DNA of 46,237 nt from a virus (IMGVR_UViG_3300008113_008697:1-46237), one strand, 5' to 3'. Counted from the first letter of the stretch, positions 93 to 24,882 are shown. Notes: generated by a model from the letters alone, not told the origin. Translations and numbers: made by a program.

Positions 93-994
93 AAGAAATA
101 ACTCGTAAACATCTTACTGAAGGCAAAGGTAAATGTTATGGACAGTGTCTTACAGCTGTTGGGTGGGTAGGTGGTACTTTACCTGAGTTATATGAAAAAG
201 ATGGAATGGTAGAATTATCTATGGCTGATGTGGCTGGAGGAGCAATAGTAACAGGAGCTGCTTTATCAGGCGAAAGATCAATTTATGTAGTTCGCTACCA
301 AGGATTTCAATGGTATAATGCTGCATCAGTAGTTAATTATGCTGCTAAATCAAAAGAAATATGGGGTAGACCTTGTCCTATACTTGTAAGAAGCATAGCA
401 ATGGAAGGAGGAATAGGACCTGTAGCTGGTTCGTCTCATCATTCTCTAATTCAGCGTATGCCTGGTATTAAGGTATTATCACCGATGACTCCAAAAGAAT
501 ATCAACTAGCCTATGATCTGTATATGGCTGATGATGATCCATACTACATCTCAGAACATAGAAAATCATATGACAATACTGAAGAACTAAATGATATAAT
601 TAGTAAAGATGAAGTTGATTTTACAATATTTCCTATTTCAATTACTCGTTTAGAAATGGATAAACTATTAAAATTAGCTGAACAAGAAGGAATTAAATTA
701 AATATAGCTCATCAGTTGTGGATTAGACCTTTCTATGTAATGGATAATTGGATTACATCTTTACAAAATTCTAAATATGGTGGTTTAGTAACAGATGATG
801 ATTATGTAGAAGGTGTAGCTAGTAGTATAGCTAATGAATTAAGTGTGGCTACTGGAAAAATAGTTCGTACATTAGGCTTAGAATCAAGAACAGCTGGATT
901 CCATCCATCTGTAGATAATCTACCCCCAACAGCCGAAAAAATACTTGAAAAACTAAAACAAATAAAAAATGAGTTTCAGTTGGCCTCTAATTAA
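65..994 (+). CDS. TPP-dependent transketolase/E1-beta-like subunit
   Basis: The 309 aa resemble the pyrimidine-binding plus C-terminal domains of transketolase-like or 2-oxoacid dehydrogenase E1-beta subunits. Residues about 45-75 hold the conserved acidic segment ELSMADVAGGAIVTGAAL. The GIGPVAGSSHHSL stretch near 130 and KVLSPMTPKEYQLAY resemble the E1-beta region before the C-terminal fold. The cofactor-binding half must be a separate protein, probably the truncated gene upstream with which it overlaps. It also overlaps the downstream PLP dehydratase by 26 bp, so the genes are translationally coupled. In bacterial sugar clusters such split enzymes can transfer two-carbon units to ketosugars (the avilamycin AviB1/B2 pair is a known case). 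A branching role here is inference; central-metabolism transketolase activity is the alternative. Confidence 0.7.
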   Translation: MATTVRETIKEITRKHLTEGKGKCYGQCLTAVGWVGGTLPELYEKDGMVELSMADVAGGAIVTGAALSGERSIYVVRYQGFQWYNAASVVNYAAKSKEIWGRPCPILVRSIAMEGGIGPVAGSSHHSLIQRMPGIKVLSPMTPKEYQLAYDLYMADDDPYYISEHRKSYDNTEELNDIISKDEVDFTIFPISITRLEMDKLLKLAEQEGIKLNIAHQLWIRPFYVMDNWITSLQNSKYGGLVTDDDYVEGVASSIANELSVATGKIVRTLGLESRTAGFHPSVDNLPPTAEKILEKLKQIKNEFQLASN

Positions 995-2132
995 TGATAA
1001 TATTACTCAACATGATAGAGAAGTATTAGCCGATTTCTGTTTAAATGGAAAACGCTTTACTAATGGTGAAAAAGTAAAAGAATTTGAAAAAGTATGGTCT
1101 GAATGGCTTGGAGTTAAACACTCAGTAATGGTTAATTCAGGAGCATCTGCTAATTTTATTTCCATTGCAATGGTAAAGGAATTAAAAGGAATAGGAGAAA
1201 TAATTGTTCCTCCAATTGGATGGGTTTCAGACATATCTTCAGTAGCACAGTTAGGAATGAAACCAGTATTTGTAGATATTAATATGAAAGATTTTAATAT
1301 CACTGCTGAAAATATTAAACGTGCTATTACTAAAGATACTAAAGCAATTGTACTAGTTCATACGTTAGGATTTAATGCTATGACTGATGAAATTGTTAAA
1401 ATAGCAAAAGAAAATAATCTTATATTAATTGAAGACTGTTGTGAAGCACATGGTGCTACATTTGAAGATAAGAAGGTAGGATCAATAGGTGATATTAGTT
1501 TATTCTCATTTTATTTCGGACATCACATTACTACAATTGAAGGAGGTACTGTATGTGTTAATGATGATAAATTATATGACCTAGCTAAGTTATTCCGTTC
1601 GCATGGTATGACTAGAGAAGCATCTTCTGAACTACAAGAAAGATATAAACTAACAAATCCAGATTTAAATCCATTATTTACATTTGCTGTAGCTGGGTTT
1701 AATATGAGATCAACTGAATTGAATGCTGTATTAGGTTTAGAACAGATGAAACGTTTAGATTATAATATTGAGTGTCGTAGAAATAATCTTGATACTTGGT
1801 TGAAAAATCTTGATCCATCTAAATTTATTACTGGTTTTAAAACACAAGGTAATAGTAACTTTGCTTTACCTCTTGTAATGCAAGGTGCTACTAGAGATAA
1901 ATTAAAAGATGTATGTAATGTATTAGCTGAAAACAGGGTTGAATATAGATTAGGAACAGCTGGAGGAGGAAATCAAGCCCGTCAACCTTATCTTAAAAAC
2001 TTTTCTTACGAAGTAAGTGGAGTGTTAGCTCAAGCTGATTATATTCACGAAAATGCTCTTTATATAGGTAATCATCCTGAATTAACAGAGGAACAGATTA
2101 TTAATCTTTGCAAAAAATTAAATAATGTTTAA
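969..2132 (+). CDS. ColD/E1-like PLP-dependent nucleotide-sugar 3-dehydratase (DegT/DnrJ/EryC1 fold)
   Basis: The 387 aa match the DegT/DnrJ/EryC1 fold and the length of E. coli ColD. The active-site segment reads FSFYFGHHITTIEGG (about residues 179-193). Ordinary members have the PLP-anchoring lysine here, while ColD (GDP-4-keto-6-deoxy-D-mannose 3-dehydratase) and RfbH have histidine. His185/His186 therefore point to C3 deoxygenation rather than transamination. IEDCCEAHGA (154-163) is the usual PLP-phosphate and ring-contact strand. Following Gmd-like 4,6-dehydration, the expected product is GDP-4-keto-3,6-dideoxymannose, a precursor of colitose-type sugars. It overlaps genes on both sides. 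The exact nucleotide and sugar are inferred from neighbours. Confidence 0.85.
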   Translation: MSFSWPLINDNITQHDREVLADFCLNGKRFTNGEKVKEFEKVWSEWLGVKHSVMVNSGASANFISIAMVKELKGIGEIIVPPIGWVSDISSVAQLGMKPVFVDINMKDFNITAENIKRAITKDTKAIVLVHTLGFNAMTDEIVKIAKENNLILIEDCCEAHGATFEDKKVGSIGDISLFSFYFGHHITTIEGGTVCVNDDKLYDLAKLFRSHGMTREASSELQERYKLTNPDLNPLFTFAVAGFNMRSTELNAVLGLEQMKRLDYNIECRRNNLDTWLKNLDPSKFITGFKTQGNSNFALPLVMQGATRDKLKDVCNVLAENRVEYRLGTAGGGNQARQPYLKNFSYEVSGVLAQADYIHENALYIGNHPELTEEQIINLCKKLNNV

Positions 2133-3090
2133 AAATCAAAACGTACTAGTAACAGGTGGTAGTGGAATGATAGGCCGCCAATTGGTAGATCTACTACTTA
2201 AAGAAGAAGCTATAGTATATGTAGCTGATCTTAACGAACCTGTTAACATGCCTAAAGAAATTAAATTTATAAGAATAGATTTAAGAAACTTTAATGCATG
2301 CAAAATGGCTTGCCAAGATATGGATTATGTATTTAATCTAGTTGGCATTAAAGCATCTCCTAAAGTAACCTTGGAACAACCATTTGATATTATAGGTCCG
2401 ATGCTTCAATTTAATACTAATATGATTGAAGCTGCTTTAACAACCCCAAGTGTAAAGTGGTTCCTATATACTAGTACAGTAGGAGTTTATCCTCCTGCTG
2501 AGGTATTTTACGAAGATGATGTTTGGAACGGCTTTCCATCTAGAAATGATTGGTATGGTGGTTGGGCTAAAAGAATGGGTGAGTTACAATGTGAAGCCTA
2601 TGAAAAACAATTTGGCGAAGGTAAATGCTCAATTATTAGACCAGCTAATGTTTATGGTCCTTATGATAATTTTGATCCTAAAAACTCAATGGTAGTTCCT
2701 TCATTAATTAGAAAGGCAGTTGAGAATGATATTATTGAAGTTTGGGGAGATGGATCATCTATTAGAGACTTTGTTCATGCTAAAGATGTAGCTCGTGGAA
2801 TGATGTTTGCTGTTAAAAATCAAATAACTAAACCTCTTAATATTGGAAGTGGAACAGGAGTTACTATTAAACAATTAGCAGAAATAGTATCTGAATACTT
2901 TAACAAACCAATTAAATGGCTAACAGACAAACCCTCAGGAGATGCTAAACGTATCTTTAGTATGGAAAGAGCTAGTTCATACGGTTTTGAAAATGAAGTA
3001 TCACTTAAAGAAGGAGTAATAGATGCTATCGAATGGTTTATAGCAAATAAAGATATAGTAGATAAAAGATTTAATATTTTAAATAAATAA
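2125..3090 (+). CDS. NAD(P)-dependent sugar epimerase/reductase (extended SDR), first copy
   Basis: The 321-aa extended short-chain dehydrogenase starts with the Rossmann glycine motif TGGSGMIG (residues 10-17). The STVGVYPP segment (117-124) supplies the active-site Ser/Thr, and IRPANVYGPYD and EVWGDGSSIRDFVHAKDVA are standard substrate-domain signatures. The catalytic YxxxK is irregular: the sequence is YGGWAKRMGE, so with Lys149 the residue four before it is Gly145 and Tyr144 is one step off. It overlaps the dehydratase by 8 bp and is 2 bp from a second SDR. By analogy with ColC it may reduce or epimerise a 4-keto sugar, but the specific reaction cannot be read from sequence. Confidence 0.8.
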   Translation: MFKNQNVLVTGGSGMIGRQLVDLLLKEEAIVYVADLNEPVNMPKEIKFIRIDLRNFNACKMACQDMDYVFNLVGIKASPKVTLEQPFDIIGPMLQFNTNMIEAALTTPSVKWFLYTSTVGVYPPAEVFYEDDVWNGFPSRNDWYGGWAKRMGELQCEAYEKQFGEGKCSIIRPANVYGPYDNFDPKNSMVVPSLIRKAVENDIIEVWGDGSSIRDFVHAKDVARGMMFAVKNQITKPLNIGSGTGVTIKQLAEIVSEYFNKPIKWLTDKPSGDAKRIFSMERASSYGFENEVSLKEGVIDAIEWFIANKDIVDKRFNILNK

Positions 3091-3092
3091 AA

Positions 3093-4052
3093 ATGGGATT
3101 TTATACTGGTAAAAATGTATTAGTAACAGGTGCGGCCGGAATTACAGGACACGCTGCTGTTAAAAGATTATTAGCTGAAGGAGCTAATGTTAGAGCTACA
3201 GTTTATAGCAACAGAGCATTAAAAATTGATCCACATCAAAATCTTGAAGTAGTTAAATGCGATCTTATGAAACATGAAGATTGTATGGATGTGTTAAAAG
3301 GTATTGATGTAGTATTTAACTTTGTAGCATTTATTAGAGGTGCTAAAGGTCAAACTGAATATGGAAATGCTTTAGACTTGGTAAGGAATAACTTATTTAC
3401 TTCAATTAATATGATTGATGCTGCTGTTAGAAGTAAAACCCCATTATTTGGATTTATTGGCAGCTCAACTATGTACCCAGATGTTTCTCACCCAGTAAAT
3501 GAAGATGAAGCATATGACTCTGAACCTCATAAACTATATAGAGGTGTAGGTTGGATGAAACGATATGTAGAACAAGTAATTCGCTACTATCAAGACATTT
3601 CAGAAACTAAATTTGGAGTTGTTCGTACAACAGCAATCTATGGTCCACACGATGCATTTAACGAAAACGGACATGCTATTCCTCAATTAATTCTAAAAGC
3701 AGATTCAGGAATGAATCCATTTGAAGTATGGGGTGATGGAAGTCAAACACGTGATTTCATTTATGTAGATGATGTTGTTGATGCTGTTATGACTGTAGTT
3801 GAAAAAGTACCTACTGGAAGACCATATAATGCTTCTACAGGTAAAGGAACAACTGTAACTGAATTAGTAGAAACTATCACTGACATTTATGGTTATAAAC
3901 CTAAATTTAACTACGATATAACCAAACCAACTATGATACCAGTACGTTTAGTAGATGTATCTAGAATTAAAAATGAAGTTGGATGGGAAGCTAAAACATC
4001 ATTAAGAGAAGGATTAGAAAAAACTATTGAGTGGTATAAAAATAATAAATAA
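3093..4052 (+). CDS. NAD(P)-dependent sugar epimerase/reductase (extended SDR), second copy
   Basis: The 319-aa protein has the glycine motif VTGAAGITGH (11-20), a GSSTMYPD active-site strand (123-130) and EVWGDGSQTRDFIYVDDVV. The GSSTMYP wording and length recall GDP-fucose synthase and GDP-colitose synthase, which epimerise C3/C5 and reduce C4. Its lysine lies in GVGWMKRYVE (Lys156) but position 152 is Val, so the canonical YxxxK tyrosine is missing; Tyr149 is the nearest. It is not a simple duplicate of the preceding SDR, because their central regions differ, but the two probably act in sequence or as a heteromer. Its stop codon overlaps the next start (TAATG). Confidence 0.8.
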   Translation: MGFYTGKNVLVTGAAGITGHAAVKRLLAEGANVRATVYSNRALKIDPHQNLEVVKCDLMKHEDCMDVLKGIDVVFNFVAFIRGAKGQTEYGNALDLVRNNLFTSINMIDAAVRSKTPLFGFIGSSTMYPDVSHPVNEDEAYDSEPHKLYRGVGWMKRYVEQVIRYYQDISETKFGVVRTTAIYGPHDAFNENGHAIPQLILKADSGMNPFEVWGDGSQTRDFIYVDDVVDAVMTVVEKVPTGRPYNASTGKGTTVTELVETITDIYGYKPKFNYDITKPTMIPVRLVDVSRIKNEVGWEAKTSLREGLEKTIEWYKNNK

Positions 4053-5062
4053 TGACTAATGTTCTTATTACAGGCATTACAGGAATGGTAGGTTCTCATT
4101 TAGCCGATTTTCTATTGGCTAATACGGATTGGAAAATATATGGTTTAGCTCGTTGGAATGATTCATTAGAAAATATTGAGCATCTGTCTTCTGAAATTAA
4201 TAGTAAAGAACGTATTGAACTTATATATGGTGACTTAAATGATCTAGCTTCATTATTAGTTGCTGTAGACAAATCAAAACCAAATTATGTATTTCATTTA
4301 GCTGCTCAATCTTATCCTCAAACTAGTTTTGATGCTCCTATTGAAACACTTCAAACTAACATTCTAGGAACAGCCAATCTACTTGAAGCATTAAGACGCT
4401 CAGAATATAAAAATGCTATTATTCATATTTGTGCTTCAAGTGAAGTATTTGGACGTGTACCTAAAGATAAACTTCCAATTAACGAAGAATGTTCTTTCCA
4501 CCCAGCTTCACCTTATGCAATATCTAAAGTTGGAACTGATTTAGTAGGTCGTTATTACGCTGAAGCATACGGAATGACAATTATGACTACACGTATGTTT
4601 ACTCATACTGGTCCTAGACGTGGAGATGTATTTTCAGAATCAACATTTGCTAAACAAATAGCAATGATTGAAGCCGGATTACAAGAACCAAAAATATACG
4701 TTGGTAATTTAGAATCACTTAGAACGTATGCTGATGTTAGAGATGCTGTTAAAGCATATTATATGCTTACAACAATTAATCCTCAACCAGGAGCTTATTA
4801 TAACATTGGGGGTACTTATACTTGTAAGATTGCTGATATGCTAAATTACCTAATAAGTAAATCAACAGTACCTAACATTGAAATTATAACCGATCCTGAA
4901 CGTTTAAGACCAATTGATGCTGATTTACAAGTACCAGATACAACTAAGTTCCAAAAGCATACAGGATGGAAACCAGAAATACCATTTGAAAAAACAATGG
5001 ACGATTTATTAGAATATTGGAGAAATAAAGTTAAATCTGGACGTAAATTTTTAAGGCGATGA
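4052..5062 (+). CDS. GDP-mannose 4,6-dehydratase-like SDR
   Basis: The 336 aa have glycine motif TGITGMVG (7-14), the dehydratase triad region CASSEVFGRVP (128-137, replacing the usual TSSE), and a canonical SPYAISK (Tyr155-Lys159). FTHTGPRRGDVF and YVGNLESLRTYADVRD are strongly reminiscent of GDP-mannose 4,6-dehydratase. That enzyme makes GDP-4-keto-6-deoxymannose, the substrate expected by the ColD-like protein encoded upstream. It is the only one of the three SDRs here with an intact YxxxK. It overlaps the sugar kinase start by 4 bp (ATGA). Confidence 0.8.
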   Translation: MTNVLITGITGMVGSHLADFLLANTDWKIYGLARWNDSLENIEHLSSEINSKERIELIYGDLNDLASLLVAVDKSKPNYVFHLAAQSYPQTSFDAPIETLQTNILGTANLLEALRRSEYKNAIIHICASSEVFGRVPKDKLPINEECSFHPASPYAISKVGTDLVGRYYAEAYGMTIMTTRMFTHTGPRRGDVFSESTFAKQIAMIEAGLQEPKIYVGNLESLRTYADVRDAVKAYYMLTTINPQPGAYYNIGGTYTCKIADMLNYLISKSTVPNIEIITDPERLRPIDADLQVPDTTKFQKHTGWKPEIPFEKTMDDLLEYWRNKVKSGRKFLRR

Positions 5063-9912: not shown

Positions 9913-9999
9913 GCCCTTGTGGTGAAATTGGTAGACACGCAGGACTTAAAATCCTGTTCGCCGAAAAAGCGAGTGCGGGTTCAAGTCCCGCTGGGGGCA
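9913..9999 (+). tRNA. tRNA-Leu (anticodon UAA)
   Basis: The acceptor is GCCCTTG/TGGGGGC, the D-arm begins GTGAAATTGGTAGACAC, and the anticodon stem CAGGA/TCCTG has loop CTTAAAA, giving UAA. A long variable arm typical of leucine tRNA is followed by a T-arm GCGGG-TTCAAGT-CCCGC. The discriminator is A and CCA is not encoded (next bases CAG). UUA is a very frequent codon in this AT-rich phage, which would explain keeping the gene. Confidence 0.95.
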
Positions 10000-10035
10000 C
10001 AGATAGTTATATGTATGGCATGCCATTATTTATCA

Positions 10036-10346: not shown

Positions 10347-10804
10347 GGGGCATACCGGTATCGATTCGGATGATGAGGTAATACTACATGCAGGCGTTTG
10401 GTAGAGTCGCCTTAGAAAACTGCAAACAATAACTGACGAAATGTCAACTATGACCTTCGACGACCTTATGGCGTTCGTAGGCGCCGACTACGCTTTAGCA
10501 GCCTAGTCCGCAAACAGGTGGGTAACCTAGGAACAGAACTACTCCGAGCGCTCACGATCGACTCGTTAAATAAGGACCGTGTGGTAGTCTCTTAACGGGG
10601 CCAAGTTTCCTGATGTCATAAAATCAGGTGGTGGAAACGACCATAAAGGTCAGTCCCTTACAGTACAGAGTTGGTCGCAAGACTGATGGAGCAAAGAAGA
10701 GATAAAAGCTACTACCCACATCTCTTACAACTTAGTACTAAGCATGTGAGACGTTAGTATTATTGTCACTTTCGAAGACCTGGGTTCGAATCCCAGATGC
10801 TCCA
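10347..10804 (+). ncRNA. ssrA: Transfer-messenger RNA (tmRNA)
   Basis: The 5' GGGGCAT pairs with 3' ATGCTCC (10797-10803), followed by discriminator A. The 3' end has a T-arm CTGGG-TTCGAAT-CCCAG. A tag frame ends in the highly conserved GACTACGCTTTAGCAGCC then TAG (D-Y-A-L-A-A). AACAATAACT directly before the resume codon matches the Bacteroidota layout as I recall it. The 458-nt length exceeds the usual 350-400 nt, mostly because of a longer tag frame. tmRNA plus SmpB rescues stalled ribosomes and tags the nascent chain for proteolysis; a phage copy would compete with or replace the host one during infection. Confidence 0.93.
10435..10506 (+). other. tmRNA tag reading frame, 23 codons plus TAG
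   Basis: Taking GAC at 10435 as resume codon (the position after AATAACT), the tag has 23 residues. It starts DEMSTMTFDD, continues LMAFVGA and ends DYALAA. Typical Bacteroidota tags are about 9 residues ending NYALAA. The alternative frame starting at the earlier GCA stops after four codons, so the long frame is the only one reaching the conserved tail. Confidence 0.75.
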
Positions 10805-10813
10805 CAATTTCTC

Positions 10814-10823: not shown

Positions 10824-10839
10824 GATGTAGAAAAAATAA

Positions 10840-10868
10840 GGTTGTATATGAAGATATACAGCCTTTTT
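10840..10868 (+). terminator. Rho-independent terminator after tmRNA
   Basis: A 10-bp stem GGTTGTATAT/ATATACAGCC with loop GAAG is followed by TTTTT. It closes the tRNA/tmRNA transcript. Confidence 0.85.
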
Positions 10869-10887: not shown

Positions 10888-11529
10888 ATGAAATCATTAT
10901 TGGTTAGTGCAAAGGAAAGATTACTGCTTGTTTTTCTTTATTTAGTAGGAATTTTAGTTACGTGTGCTTTAGCCACACAACTTTTCTTTGTATTTCTAGA
11001 TATGACTGGTAAAAGTGAGTATGCTACTCAATTAGCAAGAGAATTTAGTTGGAAGTTTGATGATGCATTTAAAAATCATCCTAACAATATAAATTATGTT
11101 GCTGAAGATCATATTTATGTTCAAAGTGTAACTAATCTAGTTAAAGTAGGCAAATTAGCAGGTAATCGCAATTTAGAATTTGGTGTTAAAAATGTCTTAG
11201 AAGAATTTCTTCAAGAAAAAGGATATGATTTAACACCAACAGCATCTTATTATTTAGATGTTGATATTATTTATTTAGATGTATTAACAACTAAAAAAAG
11301 TTTATCCGTATTCAGTAAAACTGAAAACGAAGTAGTTATAAGACTAAAAGGTACTCTCTACAACGAAGGAAAAAAAGAAAAAGAGGTGTTAGTAGAGGAA
11401 TCATCGTCTGAAATTTCAATGGCTACCCTCATAGTAGATACTGGGGGTAAGTTTAATCAGGCCTCTTTAAGTTCTGCGCTTAAAAAGGGTTGTGACAAAC
11501 TTATCACCAAATTATTTACTAAAGAATGA
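10888..11529 (+). CDS. Membrane-anchored protein, 213 aa, CsgG/LptE-like secretion of folds suspected
   Basis: There is one N-terminal transmembrane segment (LLLVFLYLVGILVTCALATQ, about 12-31) and a soluble domain of about 150 aa. Alternating strands such as YYLDVDIIYLDVL and EVVIRLKGTLYNEG and a final helix with SALKKGCDKLITKLF recall small envelope-assembly domains (CsgG, YajG or LptE-like), but no family signature is clear. It overlaps the next gene by 4 bp (ATGA), starting a run of exported proteins. An inner-membrane-anchored periplasmic role is inferred. Confidence 0.65.
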   Translation: MKSLLVSAKERLLLVFLYLVGILVTCALATQLFFVFLDMTGKSEYATQLAREFSWKFDDAFKNHPNNINYVAEDHIYVQSVTNLVKVGKLAGNRNLEFGVKNVLEEFLQEKGYDLTPTASYYLDVDIIYLDVLTTKKSLSVFSKTENEVVIRLKGTLYNEGKKEKEVLVEESSSEISMATLIVDTGGKFNQASLSSALKKGCDKLITKLFTKE

Positions 11530-13157
11530 AAAAATTAATTATTGTTTTAGGGATATTATTAGTATCTTTAACCTCATTAGGACAATTAACAATTAGTCAA
11601 TCACTTACACCAACAACTGGATTAAAAGTTGGTGATACAATTACTGTTAAGTATAATCTAACAAAAGGACAGGTAATTAAAAACCCTCGATATCTCTGGT
11701 TTAGATATCAGTATAATAACAAAGCATTTAGCCATATTTCTACTGAATTCAATCAGGGAAGCTCTGCACAAATATTTTACACAAATTGGAATAACTATAA
11801 GTTTATTCCAAACGGTGGTGCAAGTGATAATGATTTAAATGTTCAATATGGATTAAGTCCTTGGAATTATTCCGTAAATGCAGATTGGAATGTTGGACAA
11901 TTAACAGTTCAAAGAGCAGATCAATCTATTAATGGGCTAATAGCAACACAAAAATATTTACTAAAAGATTTAACAGATTACTCAAACATTTTTAAAATAG
12001 ATTTAGCGACTGGTACTGACACAACGGGTGCAAATGTTGGAACTATATATGGTGGTGGTTGGTCATCTTTACAAGGTGTATTAGGTAATATATCACAATT
12101 CAAAGTAAAAGTTTTATTTCCACAAGGATATGCAATAAATAATCATAGTGTTCAATTAATGCGATTGAAACCAGATAATTCAATTGATTGGACACAACAA
12201 CCTATTGCACAATTACCATTAGACGCAAGTGGTGAAGCACTATTTACAACTCAAATTAGACAACGTGACTCCGTTGGTGTTTTTATTACACCTGCATCAC
12301 AAAAAAGTTGGATGAACAATATATTAACAGTGTCAGATGCTTATAAAGCATTTTTAGGACACTCACAAACTAATATTGGTGGAACTCCAAGCTTCTTTAC
12401 ATATCCTAATTTAGAAACTAAAATTGGTAATGTATCAAAAAATGACAATATATTTGATGAAACAGATTCATACTACTTACTTTCACATGTAATTGGCCAA
12501 AATGTATCATCAGTTGCATATATACCTTCTGATACCGCAACATCATTTAGATGGCAAAGTGGATTATTGAATCAAAGTTGGTTAGATGGTGTACCTAAAA
12601 ATAAAGTAGTAATCACACAAGCAAATCAAGAAGTTTATGCAGTATTTGCTTGGGGTGGTGATTTAGATTGGTCACACTCATCAGACCCATCAGTTATTGC
12701 TAGTAGAATAGCTAGTGGAATGTTTACAAATTCAGTAAATAATAAGATGGTAGCCTCTTCAAAATCAATGTCGTACACACAATCTCAATTAGAAAAAGCA
12801 ACATTAGGTATAACATCCACGTTAGAAAATGGTAAAGTAATTTTAACAGCAAAATTAACAAAAGAGGGATTAGCTGGGTTACAAGTAATAATGAATTATG
12901 ATGATAGCAAATTAGTATTAGATAATGTAATATTTGATACAGGAAGTTCAATGACAAATTTTTCAACACATAAAGATGGTAGATTAACATTTGGTTCTAT
13001 TGACCAACTTAAAACTGCAAGAATAAAAACAGGTACACCTTATAAGTTAATATTTACTCCTAAAGAAACTTTAAACAATACTGCTGGATTATTCTACTTT
13101 GTTCTTTCAGATGCAGTTGATGCAGCCGGTAACAAAGTTAACTTAATAATTGAGTAA
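11526..13157 (+). CDS. Secreted modular protein with dockerin-like and cohesin-like modules
   Basis: This 543-aa protein has a signal peptide (MKKLIIVLGILLVSLTSLGQ). The N-terminal half is beta-rich. Around 268-325, TVSDAYKAFLGH and KNDNIFDETDSYYLLSHVIG form a dockerin-like pair, with DxNxxxDxxD calcium-loop character. GDLDWSHSSDPS follows, and the C-terminal 115 residues (ILTAKLTKEGLAGLQVIMNY onward, ending DAVDAAGNKVNLIIE) have cohesin-like beta-sandwich spacing. The same order recurs in the next gene, so they are paralogues. It overlaps the preceding gene and abuts the next with TAATGA. It is likely a surface or secreted adhesin; whether it acts on the host surface or the virion is open. 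Confidence 0.75.
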   Translation: MKKLIIVLGILLVSLTSLGQLTISQSLTPTTGLKVGDTITVKYNLTKGQVIKNPRYLWFRYQYNNKAFSHISTEFNQGSSAQIFYTNWNNYKFIPNGGASDNDLNVQYGLSPWNYSVNADWNVGQLTVQRADQSINGLIATQKYLLKDLTDYSNIFKIDLATGTDTTGANVGTIYGGGWSSLQGVLGNISQFKVKVLFPQGYAINNHSVQLMRLKPDNSIDWTQQPIAQLPLDASGEALFTTQIRQRDSVGVFITPASQKSWMNNILTVSDAYKAFLGHSQTNIGGTPSFFTYPNLETKIGNVSKNDNIFDETDSYYLLSHVIGQNVSSVAYIPSDTATSFRWQSGLLNQSWLDGVPKNKVVITQANQEVYAVFAWGGDLDWSHSSDPSVIASRIASGMFTNSVNNKMVASSKSMSYTQSQLEKATLGITSTLENGKVILTAKLTKEGLAGLQVIMNYDDSKLVLDNVIFDTGSSMTNFSTHKDGRLTFGSIDQLKTARIKTGTPYKLIFTPKETLNNTAGLFYFVLSDAVDAAGNKVNLIIE

Positions 13158-15040
13158 TGAAAAAATTAGTTACGTTTTTATTTATCCTAATATATAATAT
13201 ATCTCTGGCTCAATCGGGTTGGGGATATATTAATTATACGTCATATAAAACTCACAACGGAAATGGAAGCCAAACCCAATACGGGCAATTTGCAAACACG
13301 GCAGCTGAGTTTGATAATATGCTGAATACGGCAAACTCCAACACAACAATAACACATACAGGTGAAGTTCCAATTTCCTATTTATATAATGGATCATCAC
13401 AAGTTCCACGTTGGTCAAATGATTACTTTGCTTATAAGTTTGAGTTTTGGTTCGTACCACAACAAACTGGAACATATTATTTTGGAACTAATTCAGATGA
13501 TGCGTCAGATATTTTTATAGATGGTATAGCAATAGCAACTTATTATGGTGGACATGGTGCTAGTGGATATCAAACTGGAAGTATTAGTATGGTTGCAGGA
13601 AAACGATATAGAGTGGTTTATAGAGGACAGGAATTTGGTGGAGGTGAAGCTTTCTATTTTCAATGGTATAGACCTGTTGGTGGTTGGGGATATTGGGCAA
13701 ACGAAGTAACAAATATAAATAGTGAACCAACTAAAAAAGTTATGATGAATTTTAATTTTGGAAACACATTAAACAAAACAACATTTTCAGTAGGTTCTAC
13801 TTTAAGTTCAACGGGTTGGGTGGATATAACAAATTTATTAGATAGTGTTAAAATAGCCAGTGGTAATAAAGTAATTTTAAATGGTGGACAAGTTGAATAT
13901 GCTTATGTAACAAATTATACTGGTGGGAATATGTTACTAAATATAGATTTAAGAACATTTGGAAATGTAACACCATCATCTATAAATAATATTAAATTAT
14001 TAGATGTTTATGAAGGTCCTATTACATATGTAAATAGTAATGCTTATTGGGCAGTTTATACAATTCCTACACAAACATATACTCCTGGAACCTATATTAG
14101 AGATATGGGGTCAGGTAGTTATGCTTTTAAATGTGATGTAACGTATGCTGAAAATATGGTTTATAAACCTCAGTCTGTGACAATGACAACAACTAATACA
14201 TTATCTACATTATATAATAGTATTATTACTGTAACAGATGTTTATTTGGCATTTAAAGAATTTAATAATAGGGGAATATTAAGTAATCAAAGTGGAAATG
14301 AATTTGGATATGGTATCCAATATAAAAATGCTGATATAGATGATAATAATATATTTGATGAATCTGATTGTTTTAGATTATTACAGCATTTAACTGGTGT
14401 TAAAAATATAGTAGATACATTCAATTTAAATAAAACAATAAAATTAATTCCACAAGCTATATATAATACAATTGGAAAATCAAATTGGAATACCTTTTCA
14501 TCTTATTTAGGTAATACCTATAATTTTAATATTAATACAAGTAAAGCAACAGATACATTTTATATATCAGCAACTTGGAAAGGTGATATTAACTTATCAC
14601 ATTCATCAATTCCACCTTCAAACGGTATAACTAACACCAGTGTAGTAAAATTAGGGGTTAAATCTATATCAAATACAATTAATGCTTCAATTATTACTGA
14701 GTTAGATAATAAAGTGTATGCTTATATTACCTTAGATCCACTACAACAAGAATTAGTTGGAACCCAATTTCAATTAAATTACGACAACACAGTATTAAAA
14801 TTTGAATCAGTAGAATTTAAAACTAAAGGTAATCCAATAAATTATAGTACAAATAAAAGTAATTATATAAATTTAGGTTCATTAATTAATAATGGTAATA
14901 CCACATTAGATAATACTACTGAATATAAAGTAATATTTACACCAATTATAAATCTAGATAATGTATTAGGTTTAATATCAATAGGTTCTACTGATGCTGT
15001 AAATAAAGCAGGTGTACAATTAAAATTTAAAATAAACTAA
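13157..15040 (+). CDS. Secreted PA14-domain protein with dockerin/cohesin-like C-terminus
   Basis: This 627-aa protein has signal peptide MKKLVTFLFILIYNISLAQ. Residues about 88-185 form a PA14 domain, a carbohydrate-binding beta-barrel: FEFWFVPQQTGTYYFGTNSD, then DIFIDGIAIA and AGKRYRVVYRGQEFGGGEAF. TVTDVYLAFKEF and DIDDNNIFDESDCFRLLQHL follow (dockerin-like), then GDINLSHSSIPPS, then a cohesin-like end. The block from the dockerin-like motif on is paralogous to the previous protein. The PA14 module suggests binding of glycans. Low-complexity Asn/Thr-rich stretches are typical of Bacteroidota surface proteins. Confidence 0.8.
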   Translation: MKKLVTFLFILIYNISLAQSGWGYINYTSYKTHNGNGSQTQYGQFANTAAEFDNMLNTANSNTTITHTGEVPISYLYNGSSQVPRWSNDYFAYKFEFWFVPQQTGTYYFGTNSDDASDIFIDGIAIATYYGGHGASGYQTGSISMVAGKRYRVVYRGQEFGGGEAFYFQWYRPVGGWGYWANEVTNINSEPTKKVMMNFNFGNTLNKTTFSVGSTLSSTGWVDITNLLDSVKIASGNKVILNGGQVEYAYVTNYTGGNMLLNIDLRTFGNVTPSSINNIKLLDVYEGPITYVNSNAYWAVYTIPTQTYTPGTYIRDMGSGSYAFKCDVTYAENMVYKPQSVTMTTTNTLSTLYNSIITVTDVYLAFKEFNNRGILSNQSGNEFGYGIQYKNADIDDNNIFDESDCFRLLQHLTGVKNIVDTFNLNKTIKLIPQAIYNTIGKSNWNTFSSYLGNTYNFNINTSKATDTFYISATWKGDINLSHSSIPPSNGITNTSVVKLGVKSISNTINASIITELDNKVYAYITLDPLQQELVGTQFQLNYDNTVLKFESVEFKTKGNPINYSTNKSNYINLGSLINNGNTTLDNTTEYKVIFTPIINLDNVLGLISIGSTDAVNKAGVQLKFKIN

Positions 15041-15369
15041 TGAAAAAATTACTTCTAATATTATTTTTAATTGGATGTAAAAAATCAGATATACCACCAC
15101 CACAAGTTGTAGATATATTTAACATTACTCAATCAACAGTTACTAATAATAGCAATTTAGAATTTAAATTAGATAAAGCAGGAGTATATACAATTAAATT
15201 AATTGATAAAAATACAGAACAGGTCATAACTAGAGAGAGAATTAATGGCAAAGTTGGTGTAAATATTATAAAAATTTATACTAGGACATTACCTGTTAAA
15301 TATTTATATCTGGTTTTAGATGATGAAAGTGGCAACCAAGTCAATAAAACAACCATTATAATAAATTAA
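15040..15369 (+). CDS. Lipoprotein with T9SS-CTD-like beta domain, copy 1
   Basis: The 109 aa begin with a short lipoprotein signal MKKLLLILFLIGCKKSD (lipobox LIGC), followed by a Pro-rich linker and one beta domain: LEFKLDKAGVYTIKLIDKNT then GVNIIKIYTRTLPVKYLYLV. The order (strand, GxYTIKLxDxxG-like, NxxxIxTxxLPxxxY) matches the type A C-terminal sorting domain of the type 9 secretion system. Here it forms the whole mature protein rather than a tail. It is paralogous to the next gene and may dock to the secretion or surface assembly. Confidence 0.7.
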   Translation: MKKLLLILFLIGCKKSDIPPPQVVDIFNITQSTVTNNSNLEFKLDKAGVYTIKLIDKNTEQVITRERINGKVGVNIIKIYTRTLPVKYLYLVLDDESGNQVNKTTIIIN

Positions 15370-15372
15370 AAG

Positions 15373-15747
15373 ATGAAAAAAACACTATTAGTATTATTAG
15401 GAATAATATTATTATTCGCTTGTCGTAAATTCGACACCCCAATTCCTTCACAACCAACCGTAATTGATGAAAGCCTACAAATAAAAAATTCAGTAGGAAT
15501 TAAATTACAAAGTCCTTTTGTAACTAATGAAGTATTAATGAATGTAAAATTAGAAACAGCAGGTACAATTACAATTAAAATATTTGATATCTCTAATAGA
15601 GTAGTATCTAAAGAAACTGTAAGTGTAGTTGAAGGCGATAATATATTAAAAGTATATACAACTGCTCTACCTCAATCAGCTTATAGAATTGCTTTATTCA
15701 ATGCAAATAACATCCAATTAGGGATAACCGATTTTAATAAATTATAA
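15373..15747 (+). CDS. Lipoprotein with T9SS-CTD-like beta domain, copy 2
   Basis: In these 124 aa the signal MKKTLLVLLGIILLFACRKF has lipobox LFAC. The beta domain contains VKLETAGTITIKIFDISNRV and NILKVYTTALPQSAYRIALF, parallel to the preceding lipoprotein. The tandem duplication suggests a dose or partner requirement. It is three bases from copy 1 and in the same operon as the modular secreted proteins. Confidence 0.7.
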   Translation: MKKTLLVLLGIILLFACRKFDTPIPSQPTVIDESLQIKNSVGIKLQSPFVTNEVLMNVKLETAGTITIKIFDISNRVVSKETVSVVEGDNILKVYTTALPQSAYRIALFNANNIQLGITDFNKL

Positions 15748-15758
15748 AAATTAAAAAT

Positions 15759-15953
15759 ATGTCAGAAGAACAACAAGAACAATCAACAGGTGGTTCAATT
15801 AAAACTCCAATTATTATCAACAATAATAATCAACAACAACAAGCAGTAGGTGGTAAAACTGTGATTGTAAAAGAAAAAACAGTAGAAAAACCAGCAGCTC
15901 CAGTTAAGAAAAAAGAAGGTGATGAATTTAAAGAAAAAGAACCAGTATGGTAA
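15759..15953 (+). CDS. Low-complexity small protein, 64 aa
   Basis: It has Gln/Asn-rich (IINNNNQQQQ) and Lys/Glu-rich (KKKEGDEFKEKEP) segments and looks intrinsically disordered. It overlaps the next gene by 7 bp. No signal peptide. Function unknown; possibly a partner of the downstream membrane protein. Confidence 0.6.
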   Translation: MSEEQQEQSTGGSIKTPIIINNNNQQQQAVGGKTVIVKEKTVEKPAAPVKKKEGDEFKEKEPVW

Positions 15954-16507
15954 ATAATAATCAACCAAGTGGATTTAAAGATCTACTAAATAAAATGATG
16001 GCTAGACGCTGGTATATTACAGCGTTAGTATTGGGTGGCTTTATATTAATAATAGGGGGTATATTTGCTTCCATTACAGGTAATGTTGTTATTAGAGGTG
16101 AATGGAAAGAACTATTAATGTTATTATTAGGAGCCTTTATTGGTAGCTATGGTAAAATTATAGATTATTGGTTTAGTGATACTGATAAGGATAAAATGTT
16201 AGTTCAAAAAATGGATGAAGAAGATGGTGTTAGTATGGGTAGTGTAAATGATATAAAAGAATCCAATAAACCAGTAACACCACTTATCCCAGATGCCTTT
16301 GTAACAGCAGCAGCTCATGCTCATCAAATTAATTTAGCTGAAAATCAGCAAGAATTTGAACTAAGAAAAGATCAACAAGAACATGAGCAAGAAATGGAAA
16401 AATTAGAATTTGAATATCAAACTCATCGTCAATGCGAACATGTTTGGGTTGATAGTGATTATGATGGTGATTTAGAATGTGATAAGTGTGGTAAAATAAA
16501 AGATTAA
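15947..16507 (+). CDS. Two-TM membrane protein with coiled coil and zinc ribbon
   Basis: In this 186-aa protein hydrophobic helices lie at about 22-43 and 55-74 (WYITALVLGGFILIIGGIFA; LLMLLLGAFIGSYG). They are followed by a Glu/Gln-rich coiled coil (QEFELRKDQQEHEQEMEKLE) and a C-terminal CEHVWVDS...CDKCGK zinc-ribbon-like motif (Cys163, His165, Cys178, Cys181). The topology is holin-like, but the long cytoplasmic tail with a metal site is unusual for a holin. It lies next to a second small membrane protein. Confidence 0.7.
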   Translation: MVNNNQPSGFKDLLNKMMARRWYITALVLGGFILIIGGIFASITGNVVIRGEWKELLMLLLGAFIGSYGKIIDYWFSDTDKDKMLVQKMDEEDGVSMGSVNDIKESNKPVTPLIPDAFVTAAAHAHQINLAENQQEFELRKDQQEHEQEMEKLEFEYQTHRQCEHVWVDSDYDGDLECDKCGKIKD

Positions 16508-16525
16508 TAATTAAAAACTAAAAGT

Positions 16526-16765
16526 ATGAAATGGTTAAAATCGCTATTTGATGATAGCAACACAGTCAATGAAAAATCAGTAGTTGGATTTACAGCTTTC
16601 TTAATGATGGTAGTAACATTAATTGCTGATATTGCAACTGGTGTAATGGGTAAAACAATGCCTATTCACGAGTTTGTATTTGACGGCTTTATGGTGATTG
16701 TTTTAGGTGCATTCGGTATTGCATCTGTAGATAAGTTTATTAATAAGAGAAAAGGTAACGAATAA
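16526..16765 (+). CDS. Small two-TM protein, holin candidate
   Basis: The 79 aa have two hydrophobic segments (VVGFTAFLMMVVTLIADIAT and FVFDGFMVIVLGAFGIASVD) with a charged tail NKRKGNE. Similar small proteins with a VxGFxxFxxM start are often annotated as phage holins. The endolysin is only 2.5 kb downstream in the same orientation. No functional evidence is visible. Confidence 0.6.
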   Translation: MKWLKSLFDDSNTVNEKSVVGFTAFLMMVVTLIADIATGVMGKTMPIHEFVFDGFMVIVLGAFGIASVDKFINKRKGNE

Positions 16766-16772
16766 ATAATGT

Positions 16773-17492
16773 ATGAAAAATTTATTCATATTATTAAGTT
16801 GCTTTTTATTAAGCAACATAGTGACTGCTCAAACTATTGGCAGCACAAAAACCGAACAGTACAAAGCGTCTTTCGAAACCAAAGTTGATATATCTCAATT
16901 CTTAGACTATGACGGTCCAACTATCCCAATACAAATTCTCAAATGCGGTATTGGTGATGAAGTTTATGACCAATATCCTGAACTCAAAGAAAAGAAAGTG
17001 GGTTTGGGTGTGGCTAACATCACGTTGGAATATCTTGAAAATCTTAATCGATTTACATTTACAGAAGACAAAACTGAGATCAAAAACAGAATGGTTAAAC
17101 AGTTCCAAGCATCTCAAGCTGGCATTAGTCAAGATAAACTTGATGGTCGTGGTAAAATACGCCTTGCTCACTATTTTGTGGAAATTGAGGTATATGACTG
17201 GAGTGTAAGTGACGATGAAGAAGTAAATTTAAAAGACGGAGTTAAAAATACAATGGTAACTCGTTTAGGATTACAAGTACGCTTTACAAATGCTGAAACA
17301 GGAGAAATAATAGCAGCTTCAGGTTTAGGTGAAGCTAAAACAACTCGTGAATTAACTCTATTATCAGATGCAACTGTTGATCCTGTTAAATTTAATCAAT
17401 CAACTGTATCAATCGCTACTAAAAAAGCACTCGATATAGCTTGTGCTCGTATCTTAAAACGTATGGTTAGTAAAGGAGTATTTACTAAGTAA
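16773..17492 (+). CDS. CsgG-like outer-membrane secretion/assembly protein
   Basis: The 239 aa begin with signal peptide MKNLFILLSCFLLSNIVTAQ. The body follows CsgG/curli-secretion family order: NLNRFTFTEDKTEIKN (a helix after the nucleotide-binding-like strand), RLAHYFVEIEVYDWSVSDDE (AHYFVxGxV-like strand), then LQVRFTNAETGEIIAASGLG and a final conserved helix VSIATKKALDIACARILKRM. In curli systems CsgG forms the outer-membrane channel. The cysteine lipobox is absent, which differs from canonical CsgG. It is followed by a barrel-like Ser/Ala-rich protein. Pore formation is inferred. Confidence 0.75.
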   Translation: MKNLFILLSCFLLSNIVTAQTIGSTKTEQYKASFETKVDISQFLDYDGPTIPIQILKCGIGDEVYDQYPELKEKKVGLGVANITLEYLENLNRFTFTEDKTEIKNRMVKQFQASQAGISQDKLDGRGKIRLAHYFVEIEVYDWSVSDDEEVNLKDGVKNTMVTRLGLQVRFTNAETGEIIAASGLGEAKTTRELTLLSDATVDPVKFNQSTVSIATKKALDIACARILKRMVSKGVFTK

Positions 17493-18911
17493 TGAAATGG
17501 CTATTAGTATTATTAGTAACATTATTGTTAGCTACTAGTGCTAATAGCCAAACTTATACTCAAACCTTCACTGATAGATGTACTGGGGAAATTAGAGTTG
17601 CAACCACAACAATTATAAATGGTAATGCAACTGTATCATTCTATAACCAAGTCAAAACATTTACCCCTGTAGAAGTACAAAGTGGAGCTGTTCAAACGTG
17701 GCTACAAACAACATATGCCACTTACAATTCATTAGCATGTCCAACAAATACAGCCGTACAACAAGCAGTAACCAATACTGTAAGTCAAGCAGCAGCCCAA
17801 GCAGCATCAGCGGCCGCAAACGCAGCCTCATCCGCTGCTTCAAGTGCAGCAAGTTCTGCAGCGTCATCAGCAGCGTCAAGTGCAAGCTCAAGCGCTTCAT
17901 CAGCAGCGTCATCAGCAGCGTCAAGTGCAAGCTCAAGCGCTTCAACTCCTACTTCGAGTACCTCAACTTCACCACCATCATCATCTTCTTCATCATCATC
18001 CTCTTCCTCCCAATCGTCATCCTCTTCTGGATCTTCCTCTTCATCAGGATCAAGCTCGGAGAGCAAACCAGAAAGTTCAAGTTCAAGCAGCGAGCAAAAA
18101 TCAGAACAAAAATCAGAGCAGAAATCGGAACAAAAACAAGAAGAAAAAAAAGAGGAAAGTAAATCTGAGTCTAAAGAAGAAAAAAAAAGAGGAGAAGAAA
18201 GAAGAAAAAAAATCAGATAAAAAAGACGATAAAAAGAAAGATGAAAAAAAACAATTAAGATTAAATCCAATATTAATCAACTCAGATTTAACTACAGCAC
18301 AAACACCAAATGGTAAATTTGTACCTATTATTTCATTAGGTATGTCTCAATCCTCAGCTACAGGTGAATCAAGTTGGGGCGCTAACACTATGATATTTGC
18401 TGATTTAAAATCATTTGCTCTATCAGCTAATAAAAGTAATTTAGTACTTAAAAACGGACAATTAAAGGCTATTAAAGCATATTCACATACTTATGCTTGG
18501 ATGAATGGTATTCCAATGATATTTAGTGGTTATACTTATGTTAAACCCCATCCACAATATGGGACAATTGGATATAATTTATCATTAATTACTATTAAAT
18601 TAAAAAGTGAAAATAAAAGCTACTCATACCAATTAGCATCCTCGATAACTACATTTTGGACTAAACCATATAAAATCACTCCAAGATCAAATATATCACC
18701 AGGTGTATTTTTAATGGCTTCTCCTTATTCATATAATAATAAAAATGGTAGCACCTGGAGTTATAATATAGGTGGGTTAGTAGGAGCAGGGTATAATTAT
18801 CAGATATCAAAACGATTCGCATTTGCAATTGATTATAAATTAAATGCATCAACTGCTAAGGGAGCTCCATTATTAAATTTTGTAATGATTGGAGCAAAAT
18901 CTATGTTTTAA
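17492..18911 (+). CDS. Ser/Ala-rich exported protein with barrel-like C-terminus, read across a frameshift
   Basis: The first frame runs 17492-18220. It has a signal peptide (MKWLLVLLVTLLLATSANSQ), a short ordered domain ending SLACPTN, then Ala/Ser repeats, a Ser-rich run and a KSEQKSEQ-type charged tract. After the A9 run at 18180-18188 the original frame stops at 18218-18220. The +1 frame instead continues through Lys/Glu/Asp repeats into about 220 ordered residues rich in aromatic alternating strands, ending IGAKSMF. A terminal Phe is the classical outer-membrane barrel signal. The most economical reading is one gene with a one-base shift at A9 (sequencing error, transcript slippage or programmed shift). 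It overlaps the CsgG-like stop (TAATG). Confidence 0.7.
17858..17944 (+). repeat. 42-bp tandem repeat in Ser/Ala tract
   Basis: Two identical 42-bp copies (17858-17899 and 17903-17944), starting gcagcgtcatcag, are separated by tca. They encode Ala/Ser repeats and are locally GC-rich. Recent expansion by replication slippage is likely. Confidence 0.85.
18180..18188 (+). other. A9 slippery run at frame change
   Basis: Nine A residues between GAAG and GAGG lie where the first frame (GAA AAA AAA AGA) and the +1 frame (AAA AAA AAA GAG) are both open. An A8 run would fuse the two frames. Confidence 0.7.
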
Positions 18912-18921
18912 ACTTGGTTTG

Positions 18922-18945
18922 GTCAAAATGTTATCTTATATTTAA
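18922..18945 (+). promoter_or_regulatory. Middle-type promoter: GTC-N12-TATATTTAA
   Basis: GGTCAAAATGTTATCT then TATATTTAA, 20 nt before the lipoprotein ATG. It is one of the best matches to the bipartite motif. Confidence 0.6.
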
Positions 18946-18965
18946 GTAAATAAATAAATAAAAAT

Positions 18966-19154
18966 ATGAAAAAAGTAATTTTTACATTTGCACTAGGTTT
19001 AGTTCTAGCGTCTTGTGGATCAAACAACACAACTGTAATCAATACATCTGATTCTACAGTTATTGATAGTACTGCTGTTGCTGATTCAGCTGTTACTGCT
19101 GTTGATTCAAGTGTAGCTGAAATTAAGGCTGCTGGAGACTCTGTAGCAAAGTAA
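18966..19154 (+). CDS. Small lipoprotein, 62 aa
   Basis: Signal MKKVIFTFALGLVLASCGSN has lipobox LASC. The mature part of about 45 residues is Ser/Thr/Val/Asp repetitive (VIDSTAVADSAVTAVDSSV). It is monocistronic between a promoter and a strong terminator, immediately upstream of the endolysin. Size and location would fit an outer-membrane spanin-like lysis protein, but its sequence has no diagnostic feature. Confidence 0.75.
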   Translation: MKKVIFTFALGLVLASCGSNNTTVINTSDSTVIDSTAVADSAVTAVDSSVAEIKAAGDSVAK

Positions 19155-19185: not shown

Positions 19186-19219
19186 AAGGTTGTATATGTA
19201 AAGGTATACAACCTTTTTT
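19186..19219 (+). terminator. Rho-independent terminator
   Basis: An 11-bp stem AAGGTTGTATA/TATACAACCTT has an 8-nt loop, with Ts running on to 19219. The stem sequence is nearly the same as in the post-tmRNA terminator, so the phage reuses this hairpin. Confidence 0.88.
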
Positions 19220-19246: not shown

Positions 19247-19840
19247 ATGGACTTAAACAAATTAAAAGGACACATCCCAGATGGTGTAATTGCACAAATT
19301 CCTGATGTAATGAAAACATTCGGAATTGACACAGCAGTTGAATTATCTCATTTTTTATCTCAATGTGGTCATGAATCTGCTGGTTTTAAAGTTGTAAATG
19401 AAAACCTAAATTACAGTGCTAAGGGTTTATTAGGTATATTTAAAAAATACTTCCCAACCCAAGCATTAGCCGAGTCATATCAACGCAAACCAGAAAAGAT
19501 TGCAAATAAAGTATATGCATCTAGAATGGGTAATGGTGATGAGGCATCAGGTGAGGGTTTTAAATATCGTGGACGTGGTTATATTCAATTAACAGGTAAA
19601 TCAAATTATACTGCTTTTGGTAAAGCAATTGGTGTTGATATAGCTGCTAATCCTGATTTAGTAGCGACTAAATATCCTTTACTATCTGCTGCTTGGTTCT
19701 TTTCTAAAAATTGTTTACCTAAATGTAAAGATGCTTCTGACGCTACTGTAACAGCTGTTACTAAATGTGTTAATGGTGGTACAATTGGTTTACCGGACCG
19801 CCTTAAGCATTTTAAAGAATATTATAATTTACTTAAGTAA
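19247..19840 (+). CDS. GH19-family endolysin (chitinase-like muramidase)
   Basis: The 197-aa single-domain GH19 protein has SHFLSQCGHESAGFKVV (Glu43 as likely acid catalyst), NLNYSAKGLL, EGFKYRGRGYIQLTGKSNY and AAWFFSKNCLPKCKD, all standard for phage GH19 endolysins. The length is typical for a complete catalytic domain, with no cell-wall-binding module and no signal peptide, so it would need a holin. It would cleave peptidoglycan at lysis. It follows a terminator and is transcribed from its own start region. Confidence 0.93.
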   Translation: MDLNKLKGHIPDGVIAQIPDVMKTFGIDTAVELSHFLSQCGHESAGFKVVNENLNYSAKGLLGIFKKYFPTQALAESYQRKPEKIANKVYASRMGNGDEASGEGFKYRGRGYIQLTGKSNYTAFGKAIGVDIAANPDLVATKYPLLSAAWFFSKNCLPKCKDASDATVTAVTKCVNGGTIGLPDRLKHFKEYYNLLK

Positions 19841-24255: not shown

Positions 24256-24882
24256 ATGAAATACCTATTATTCCTTCTTATGTTCATTACTGTTACGACT
24301 TATAGTCAAGATACAGTTACATTACATCATAAAGCATATTCAACTACATTTAGTAAGTCTAAACATTATCCTGTAAAGGTAGAATGGTGGGTTACTAAAG
24401 CATCACTAAATTGTCCTGTTAAAGTAAAACGTGGAGATAAATTCATCCCTGATCCTAAATTAGCAACTGAAACAGATTTACAGGCAGCCTATACAGGACA
24501 AGGATTTGATCGTGGTCATAATTTCCCAGCAGCAGATGCTGCTTGTGATCAAGTAGCAAACGACGAATCATTTTACTTCAGTAATATGACAGCTCAATAC
24601 CCAGCATTAAATAGGGGTGATTGGAAGGTATTAGAAATAATGATACGTGATGAAGCACTTAAATATGATTCAATTCACGTTTGGTGTGGTTCAGTTGGTG
24701 AAATTAAAAAAATAGGTAAAGTATCTATTCCTTCCCAATGTTGGAAGGTAACTTACAATAAACATAAAAATGAATGGGATGCTTTTCTATTTGACAATAA
24801 TACAAGCAAAGCAGATGGACTTAAAAACAATCAAGTTGATGTAAAGTTGATTGAGCAAATTACAGGTTTTAAATTTAAATAA
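24256..24882 (+). CDS. Secreted DNA/RNA non-specific endonuclease (NUC1-like)
   Basis: Started at ATG 24256 (208 aa), it has a signal peptide MKYLLFLLMFITVTTYS. A GTG 15 bases earlier would precede it but spoils the signal. The beta-beta-alpha-metal nuclease core is GFDRGHNFPAADA (His88 general base), then FYFSNMTAQYPALNRGDWKVLE (Asn110 as metal ligand) and HVWCGSV. These are the S1/NucA/DNase-like family marks. Export to the periplasm or medium means it would degrade extracellular or host DNA, perhaps scavenging nucleotides or excluding other phage DNA. Confidence 0.9.
   Translation: MKYLLFLLMFITVTTYSQDTVTLHHKAYSTTFSKSKHYPVKVEWWVTKASLNCPVKVKRGDKFIPDPKLATETDLQAAYTGQGFDRGHNFPAADAACDQVANDESFYFSNMTAQYPALNRGDWKVLEIMIRDEALKYDSIHVWCGSVGEIKKIGKVSIPSQCWKVTYNKHKNEWDAFLFDNNTSKADGLKNNQVDVKLIEQITGFKFK

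Follow-up and report, generated by a model that had tools for sequence, protein, structure and literature searches.

Outer membrane proteins of the CsgG type are already known from bacteriophages: phage-borne CsgG systems have been described in pelagiphages and in a methylophage (PMC7029224, PMC9004378, PMC9599517), with partners that differ from those presented below. The barrel of FapF, the amyloid secretion protein of Pseudomonas, is preceded by a periplasmic region at the N-terminus and by a disordered linker (PMC5557850), and TraT, the surface-exclusion protein of the F plasmid, has two transmembrane (TM) helices (PMC12658005). This study concerns a gene cassette carried by the IMG/VR virus record IMGVR_UViG_3300008113_008697, a stretch of 46,237 bases referred to as the window and numbered from its first letter. 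The cassette is a conserved outer membrane and surface module which includes a CsgG-fold protein, an outer membrane barrel, lipoproteins and cohesin-ended adhesin-like proteins. We propose, with a probability of about one half, that it is a conserved operon by which large phages of Bacteroidota (Flavobacterium type) carry out outer membrane export and surface display, and which would change the surface of the infected cell.

The cassette appears as one operon-like unit of mostly overlapping genes (positions 10888-19154; Table 1). Up to gene 10 the coding intervals overlap or are separated by 3-18 nt. The unit is flanked by near-identical intrinsic terminators and gene 12, which encodes a short lipoprotein, therefore also belongs to it; the region includes 11 terminator-like sites where 4.3 are expected. 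Almost every gene product is exported, lipid-anchored or a membrane protein. Most proteins exported by Bacteroidota carry a glutamine at the type I signal cleavage site, the so-called Q-rule, and exported phage proteins of P. gingivalis are mentioned in the same study (PMC10653852). Export signals were scored here by a simple heuristic (a hydrophobic N-terminal segment and a Gln at a cleavage-like site). A hydrophobic segment was found in every open reading frame (ORF) of the cassette except the shortened gene 6, and the Gln in genes 1, 2, 3, 9 and 10; gene 5 also matches the Gln-site pattern, yet is a lipoprotein. Outside the cassette, a Q-rule-like signal is present in 2 of 82 window ORFs, and in all of the gene 9 relatives that have a hydrophobic N-terminus (147/147) the residue at the likely cleavage position is Gln.

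Gene order is conserved in approximately 150 loci, where the recurrent members are the cohesin protein(s), gene 6, gene 9, the barrel and a gene-1-like protein; this conservation excludes chance for the gene set. When loci are anchored on the gene 5 lipoprotein, genes 1-5 and 9 are found together in 55 of 55. With its operon-like spacing, export signals and conserved synteny, the run of exported and membrane genes that the preliminary description had placed at 10888-18911 is real. The module is present in the cultured Flavobacterium phage immuto, and searches of IMG/VR contigs gave 475 viral matches with gene 9 and 113 with its immuto homolog. A scan of 84,980 genomes with gene 9 returned only two contigs, both from metagenome-assembled genomes (MAGs) and probably phage contamination; a host origin of gene 9 was considered and rejected, no donor having been found. 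Two module-bearing contigs (L163 and L164) are binned in Flavobacterium and Bacteroidetes MAGs, probably as phage contamination, and hint at hosts. Together the data suggest a large phage family of aquatic Bacteroidota with a conserved operon of outer-membrane-pore-like and sticky surface proteins which rebuilds the exterior of the infected cell.

Gene 9 shows a median identity of 86% across 82 loci, compared to 40-56% for the adhesins. Its AlphaFold2 model (pLDDT, predicted local distance difference test, of 74.8 from a 57-sequence alignment) finds its best PDB matches in CsgG structures, with a Foldseek E value of 2e-7 and a VIA Z score of 11.9 (root-mean-square deviation 3.2 over 152 residues). 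The next-best folds are PelC (Z 9.2), the HpaA type and LptE (Z 8.7). Sequence searches with gene 9 gave no match in Pfam (including PF03783), PHROG or PDB; among its relatives PF03783 was matched in 1 of 57 at E 0.01 and otherwise in none, and hhalign against E. coli CsgG gave nothing. On its predicted structure gene 9 is thus a CsgG-fold protein, not a CsgG by sequence family. Type I signals with a Q-rule-like site are found in most relatives as well as in the window copy; a lipobox-like pattern occurs in 31 of 163. The predicted hairpins are about 25 and 28 residues long with 32% and 25% charged residues, compared to 28 and 35 residues with 18% and 23% in E. coli CsgG. Given a window copy without lipidation and hairpins of lesser length and higher charge, we use the term CsgG-fold rather than CsgG and regard an autonomous pore as unproven: of the CsgG-like channel initially proposed, the fold stands but membership of the sequence family does not.

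The C-terminal domain of gene 1 also appears related to this fold family, although by a less direct route. Profiles were built for gene 9 (CsgG-like, A1), gene 1 (A2) and a family from the immuto clade (A3). A2 and A3 match at E 5e-12 and A3 and A1 at E 3e-9, but A1 and A2 only at 5e-3. From these comparisons, gene 1 would belong to the broad family of gene 9 only by way of the intermediate A3, the direct comparison being weak.

The second conserved outer membrane component is the product of gene 10/11. Its C-terminal 217 residues are predicted to form a barrel of 12 long strands (AlphaFold2 pLDDT 90.6). The top Foldseek match is FapF (E 2.4e-7), and the Z scores for the autotransporter NalP (21.4), the porin KdgM (20.4) and FapF (19.8) lie close together. 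These matches to outer membrane barrels bear out the earlier proposal of a Ser/Ala-rich barrel-like protein. The likeness to FapF is one of predicted structure and we do not claim homology. In the window an extended A-run near 18180 divides the gene into two ORFs; the relative L003, elsewhere essentially identical to the window, has a shorter run and a single barrel ORF of 472 aa, and most homologs at other loci are likewise encoded by one ORF (about 380-510 aa). The longer run may be either a sequencing error or real frame variation.

Genes 2 and 3 encode the variable part of the module. They are paralogous over their C-terminal halves (29% identity over 286 aa, BLASTP E 1e-19) and share a single dockerin-like loop, a GDxxxSHSS motif and a cohesin-like end. 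The PA14 domain of gene 3 lies barely above the Pfam cut-off (24.9 bits against 24) and the cohesin domain (PF00963) of gene 2, scanned alone, below it (19.2 against 24.1 bits). The cohesins of relatives pass the cut-off (36.7 bits in L083 and 26.5 in L074) and the profile of the gene 2/3 family matches PDB cohesins, with a best E value of 1.3e-4. Both relations on which the preliminary description had been staked were found, structure prediction leading to CsgG and family profiles to cohesin. The dockerin-like loop is approximately 50-fold enriched in the cohesin families of the cassette and there is at most one loop per protein. Neither a Pfam dockerin nor two EF-hand-like repeats were found in the window proteins or the relatives scanned, and dockerins in the strict sense are, as judged from sequence, absent. 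The picture of two modular paralogs with PA14 and a cohesin relation is therefore retained, but not their dockerin parts, which reduce to single loops, degenerate in gene 2. The N-terminal halves of the family vary, with PA14 in the window and a C-type lectin in relatives, where an exported lectin family adjoining the module also carries laminin-G. Glycan binding would fit the PA14 domain and the C-type lectin domains of relatives.

The cohesin proteins of the immuto clade and of a few window-clade phages end in a genuine type A sorting domain of the type IX secretion system (T9SS). L083 and L028 score 44.8 and 26.3 bits against TIGR04183 (cut-off 23) and 34.6 and 33.4 bits against PF18962 (cut-off 27), and the sorting-domain profile of the relatives matches solved T9SS C-terminal domains (CTDs). 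Window genes 2 and 3 match neither TIGR04183 nor PF18962, both ending with the cohesin-like domain. T9SS cargo domains are present in 60 of 60 sampled genomes from the family of the Flavobacterium MAG. Lipoprotein genes 4 and 5, which are paralogs (E 1e-20), resemble the T9SS CTD profile with E 1e-4 and a probability of 59% for gene 4 and E 3e-4 and 42% for gene 5; a weak match to Por_Secre_tail occurs in 16 of 23 members of the gene 5 family. Thus the tandem paralogous lipoproteins noticed initially are confirmed, whereas the T9SS-CTD-like fold attributed to them is only weakly apparent. Of 148 loci, 80 carry a tagged cohesin protein, 64 the CTD-like lipoproteins, four neither and none both. 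The gene 9 tree requires at least three changes of tagged type, and we infer that tag and lipoproteins represent two interchangeable forms of anchoring module, one fused and one separate. The module is probably not self-contained, as had been suggested, because many relatives carry host-type T9SS sorting domains and the signal peptides follow the Q-rule of the host.

Three small genes separate the lipoproteins from gene 9. Members of the gene 6 family end in Trp in 142 of 142 cases and include a TM-like stretch in 141 of 142. The window copy has lost 35 residues, including the TM helix, in-frame with respect to the near-identical L003. Genes 7 and 8 were considered as holins and rejected, with no confident PHROG or Pfam holin support.

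How might such a module act? Cassette proteins would leave the cytoplasm through the host Sec pathway during infection. Gene 9, perhaps together with its relative gene 1, would form an outer membrane ring and cooperate with the co-encoded 12-stranded barrel. The displayed cargo would be the variable modular proteins of genes 2 and 3, which carry PA14 here and, in relatives, a C-type lectin or laminin-G domain, and of which most are cohesin-ended. In many relatives a sorting domain of the cargo's own would direct it to the host T9SS and thereby to the surface, while in relatives of the window separate CTD-like lipoproteins (genes 4 and 5) would replace the fused domain. The outcome would most likely be an altered cell surface which repels competing phages, with cell aggregation as a second choice. 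Mutations in T9SS (gld/spr) genes lead to phage resistance in F. columnare (PMC9233685), and a phage which loads the T9SS with its own cargo could therefore hide receptors from competitors. Tentatively, the cassette may more specifically be a phage-specific display machine in which a CsgG-fold ring and a barrel of FapF or autotransporter type are plugged into the host T9SS, the tag sometimes being swapped for CTD-like lipoproteins, and which coats cells with exchangeable lectin-type adhesins. Several observations weigh against a surface-display operon. With hairpins that are shorter than in E. coli CsgG and carry more charge, gene 9 may fail to form a pore; the T9SS-CTD likeness of genes 4 and 5 is weak; the mutual exclusion of tag and lipoproteins rests on about two informative independent pairs and a sign test is not significant; and superinfection exclusion is proposed by analogy only, the Z score of TraT (7.0) lying within the range of common arrangements.

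The same proteins could instead serve lysis and egress, a role which the Melnitz authors proposed for phage CsgG (PMC9004378). The CsgG-fold ring and the barrel would perforate the outer membrane, gene 6 would span the periplasm, and genes 7 and 8 would act with the GH19 endolysin encoded 3′ of the unit (19247-19840; phrog_181, E 2e-65). At many loci the endolysin gene is close to the module, and genes 6-8 do encode small membrane proteins. However, genes 7 and 8 are not recognized as holins, an endolysin homolog occurs in only 14 of the 55 lipoprotein-anchored loci in which genes 1-5 and 9 are invariably present, and adhesins with lectin, PA14 and cohesin domains, as well as T9SS tags, fit no obvious lysis role; we consider this explanation unlikely. 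The resemblance of gene 9 to CsgG and of the barrel to FapF, their best Foldseek matches, would also suit a functional amyloid system, in which fibre-forming proteins, or segments rich in Ser/Ala or N/Q, pass out through the channel and make infected cells clump. There is a precedent in pelagiphage curli genes accompanied by CsgA/B (PMC9599517), and the capture of sibling cells has been suggested (PMC7029224). Apart from the folds, no cassette protein of the window has a Pfam curli or Fap match (among the ten scanned, none for CsgA/B, CsgE or CsgF, although remote homologs are still possible), the barrel is by Z score also near autotransporters and porins, and no repeat-bearing candidate for a fibre subunit was identified, which makes an amyloid quite improbable.

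Finally, the proteins might be tail or capsid decorations which merely resemble surface proteins. PA14-type stretches are known in phage tail proteins, there is a weak match to a tail protein of a Tunturiibacter phage, and exported proteins could attach to virions after lysis. Yet most of the genes have host Q-rule signal peptides or lipoboxes, relatives carry T9SS tags, the barrel is of the outer membrane type, and in immuto the module genes lie after those for replication and ribonucleotide reductase. Such a structural role thus appears very improbable; no immuto virion proteomics was found in the literature searched.

Table 1. Features of the cassette and associated elements. Positions refer to the window unless a relative is named.
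Feature	Position	Strand	Remarks
Intrinsic terminator, upstream	10838..10865	+	Between tmRNA and gene 1; 12-pair stem and T run
Gene 1, 213 aa	10888..11529	+	Membrane anchor at N-terminus; relation of C-terminal domain to CsgG-fold family; weak Lipoprotein_16 match
Gene 2, 543 aa, exported	11526..13157	+	GDLDWSHSS motif; dockerin-like loop, degenerate; cohesin-like domain at C-terminus
Gene 3, 627 aa, exported; paralogous to gene 2	13157..15040	+	PA14; one dockerin-like loop (DIDDNNIFDESD) at residue 393; cohesin-like end
Gene 4, 109 aa lipoprotein	15040..15369	+	Ig/T9SS-CTD-like; C13 of lipobox invariant across family
Gene 5, 124 aa lipoprotein	15373..15747	+	Ig/T9SS-CTD-like; DUF3244 E 8e-5
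Gene 6, small N/Q-rich protein	15759..15953	+	Ends in invariant Trp; TM helix of relatives missing
Gene 7, 186 aa membrane protein	15947..16507	+	Conserved WKELLLLLLGAFIGSYGKIIDYWFSDTDKDK core; family of 53 proteins, short version in 37
Gene 8, 79 aa small membrane protein	16526..16765	+	Holin-like look; no confident PHROG/Pfam holin match
Gene 9, 239 aa exported CsgG-fold protein	16773..17492	+	AlphaFold2 model, Foldseek, VIA; most conserved gene of the set
Gene 10/11, one outer membrane protein	17492..18911	+	Frame-split at ~18180; N-terminal domain followed by Ser/Ala linker, charged segment and 12-stranded barrel (18258-18908)
Gene 12, 62 aa lipoprotein	18966..19154	+	Lipobox; final gene ahead of terminator
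Intrinsic terminator, closing	19186..19215	+	Near-identical to 10838-10865 site
HExxH-like exported protein, examples in relatives	L114 1131-1586; L111 5174-5620	minus	

The surroundings of the unit include several further elements. A phage-borne tmRNA (10347-10807; Rfam RF00023, 61.8 bits), missed by ARAGORN and with a tag reading frame ending in ...GADYALAA, lies directly upstream, just preceded by a tRNA-Leu (taa) at 9913-10000. Promoter prediction was set aside: the Bacteroidota motif TAnnTTTG is not enriched (70 sites against 76 expected) and sigma-70-like sites are fewer than expected. An aminotransferase and three nucleotide-sugar epimerase-like genes lie in a row at 969-5062, possibly for phage surface-glycan synthesis. 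A further exported protein with a Q-rule-like signal is encoded at 24256-24882, and its family is also found near the cassette in 15 relatives. In immuto, an exported protein annotated as NUC1 endonuclease is encoded beside the module (L001 8205-8783). An exported protein of about 150 aa with an HExxH-like motif (VHESRH/VHESKH), possibly a zinc protease, adjoins the module in approximately 35 loci, and a GroEL-like chaperonin gene is found near it in six relatives (e.g. L150 1370-2980).

If the cassette is indeed a surface-display operon, a very common group of aquatic phages would reprogram the host exterior by combining outer membrane hardware of its own with the host T9SS. Phage surface display for superinfection exclusion or aggregation would become testable, and Flavobacterium phage immuto on strain LMO8 would provide a cultured model for why phages carry CsgG-type proteins. 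In the open-licence literature searched we found neither a phage module of this make-up nor phage-encoded T9SS cargo, and in the literature searched no functional study of this module. The preliminary view that no such phage system had been described thus holds for this composition but must be qualified by the CsgG systems already known from phages.

Compared to the pelagiphage and methylophage Melnitz type VIII systems (curli: CsgG, CsgF, CsgA/B), the cassette likewise has a phage-encoded CsgG-fold outer membrane protein within a conserved cluster of exported proteins. It differs in its Bacteroidota hosts and in having neither a sequence-level CsgG nor any curli partner seen; in their place are a 12-stranded barrel, cohesin-ended adhesins, and CTD-like lipoproteins or T9SS tags. 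E. coli CsgG itself (4uv2/4uv3/6si7), the best PDB match of gene 9, shares its fold and overall size but differs in its lipidation and longer, less charged hairpins, and identity is 10-12%. In PelC/PelB and LptE/LptD, a ring or plug protein of a fold related to gene 9 goes with an outer membrane barrel. A barrel is co-encoded here too, although of different size and sequence, and the partnership in the cassette is one that we infer. TraT, an outer membrane protein of a mobile element, has a core fold only weakly related to gene 9 (VIA Z 7.0), and its two TM helices are not seen there. Pseudomonas FapF has in common with gene 10/11 a 12-stranded barrel following an N-terminal part and a low-complexity linker, but there is no sequence similarity, fap operon partners are missing and the barrel is about equally like NalP and KdgM. 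Finally, relatives such as L083 and L028 share with Bacteroidota T9SS type A cargo carrying cohesin a Q-rule signal peptide, a cohesin and a C-terminal sorting domain, but are phage-encoded, and the window proteins dispense with the sorting domain and are accompanied instead by CTD-like lipoproteins.

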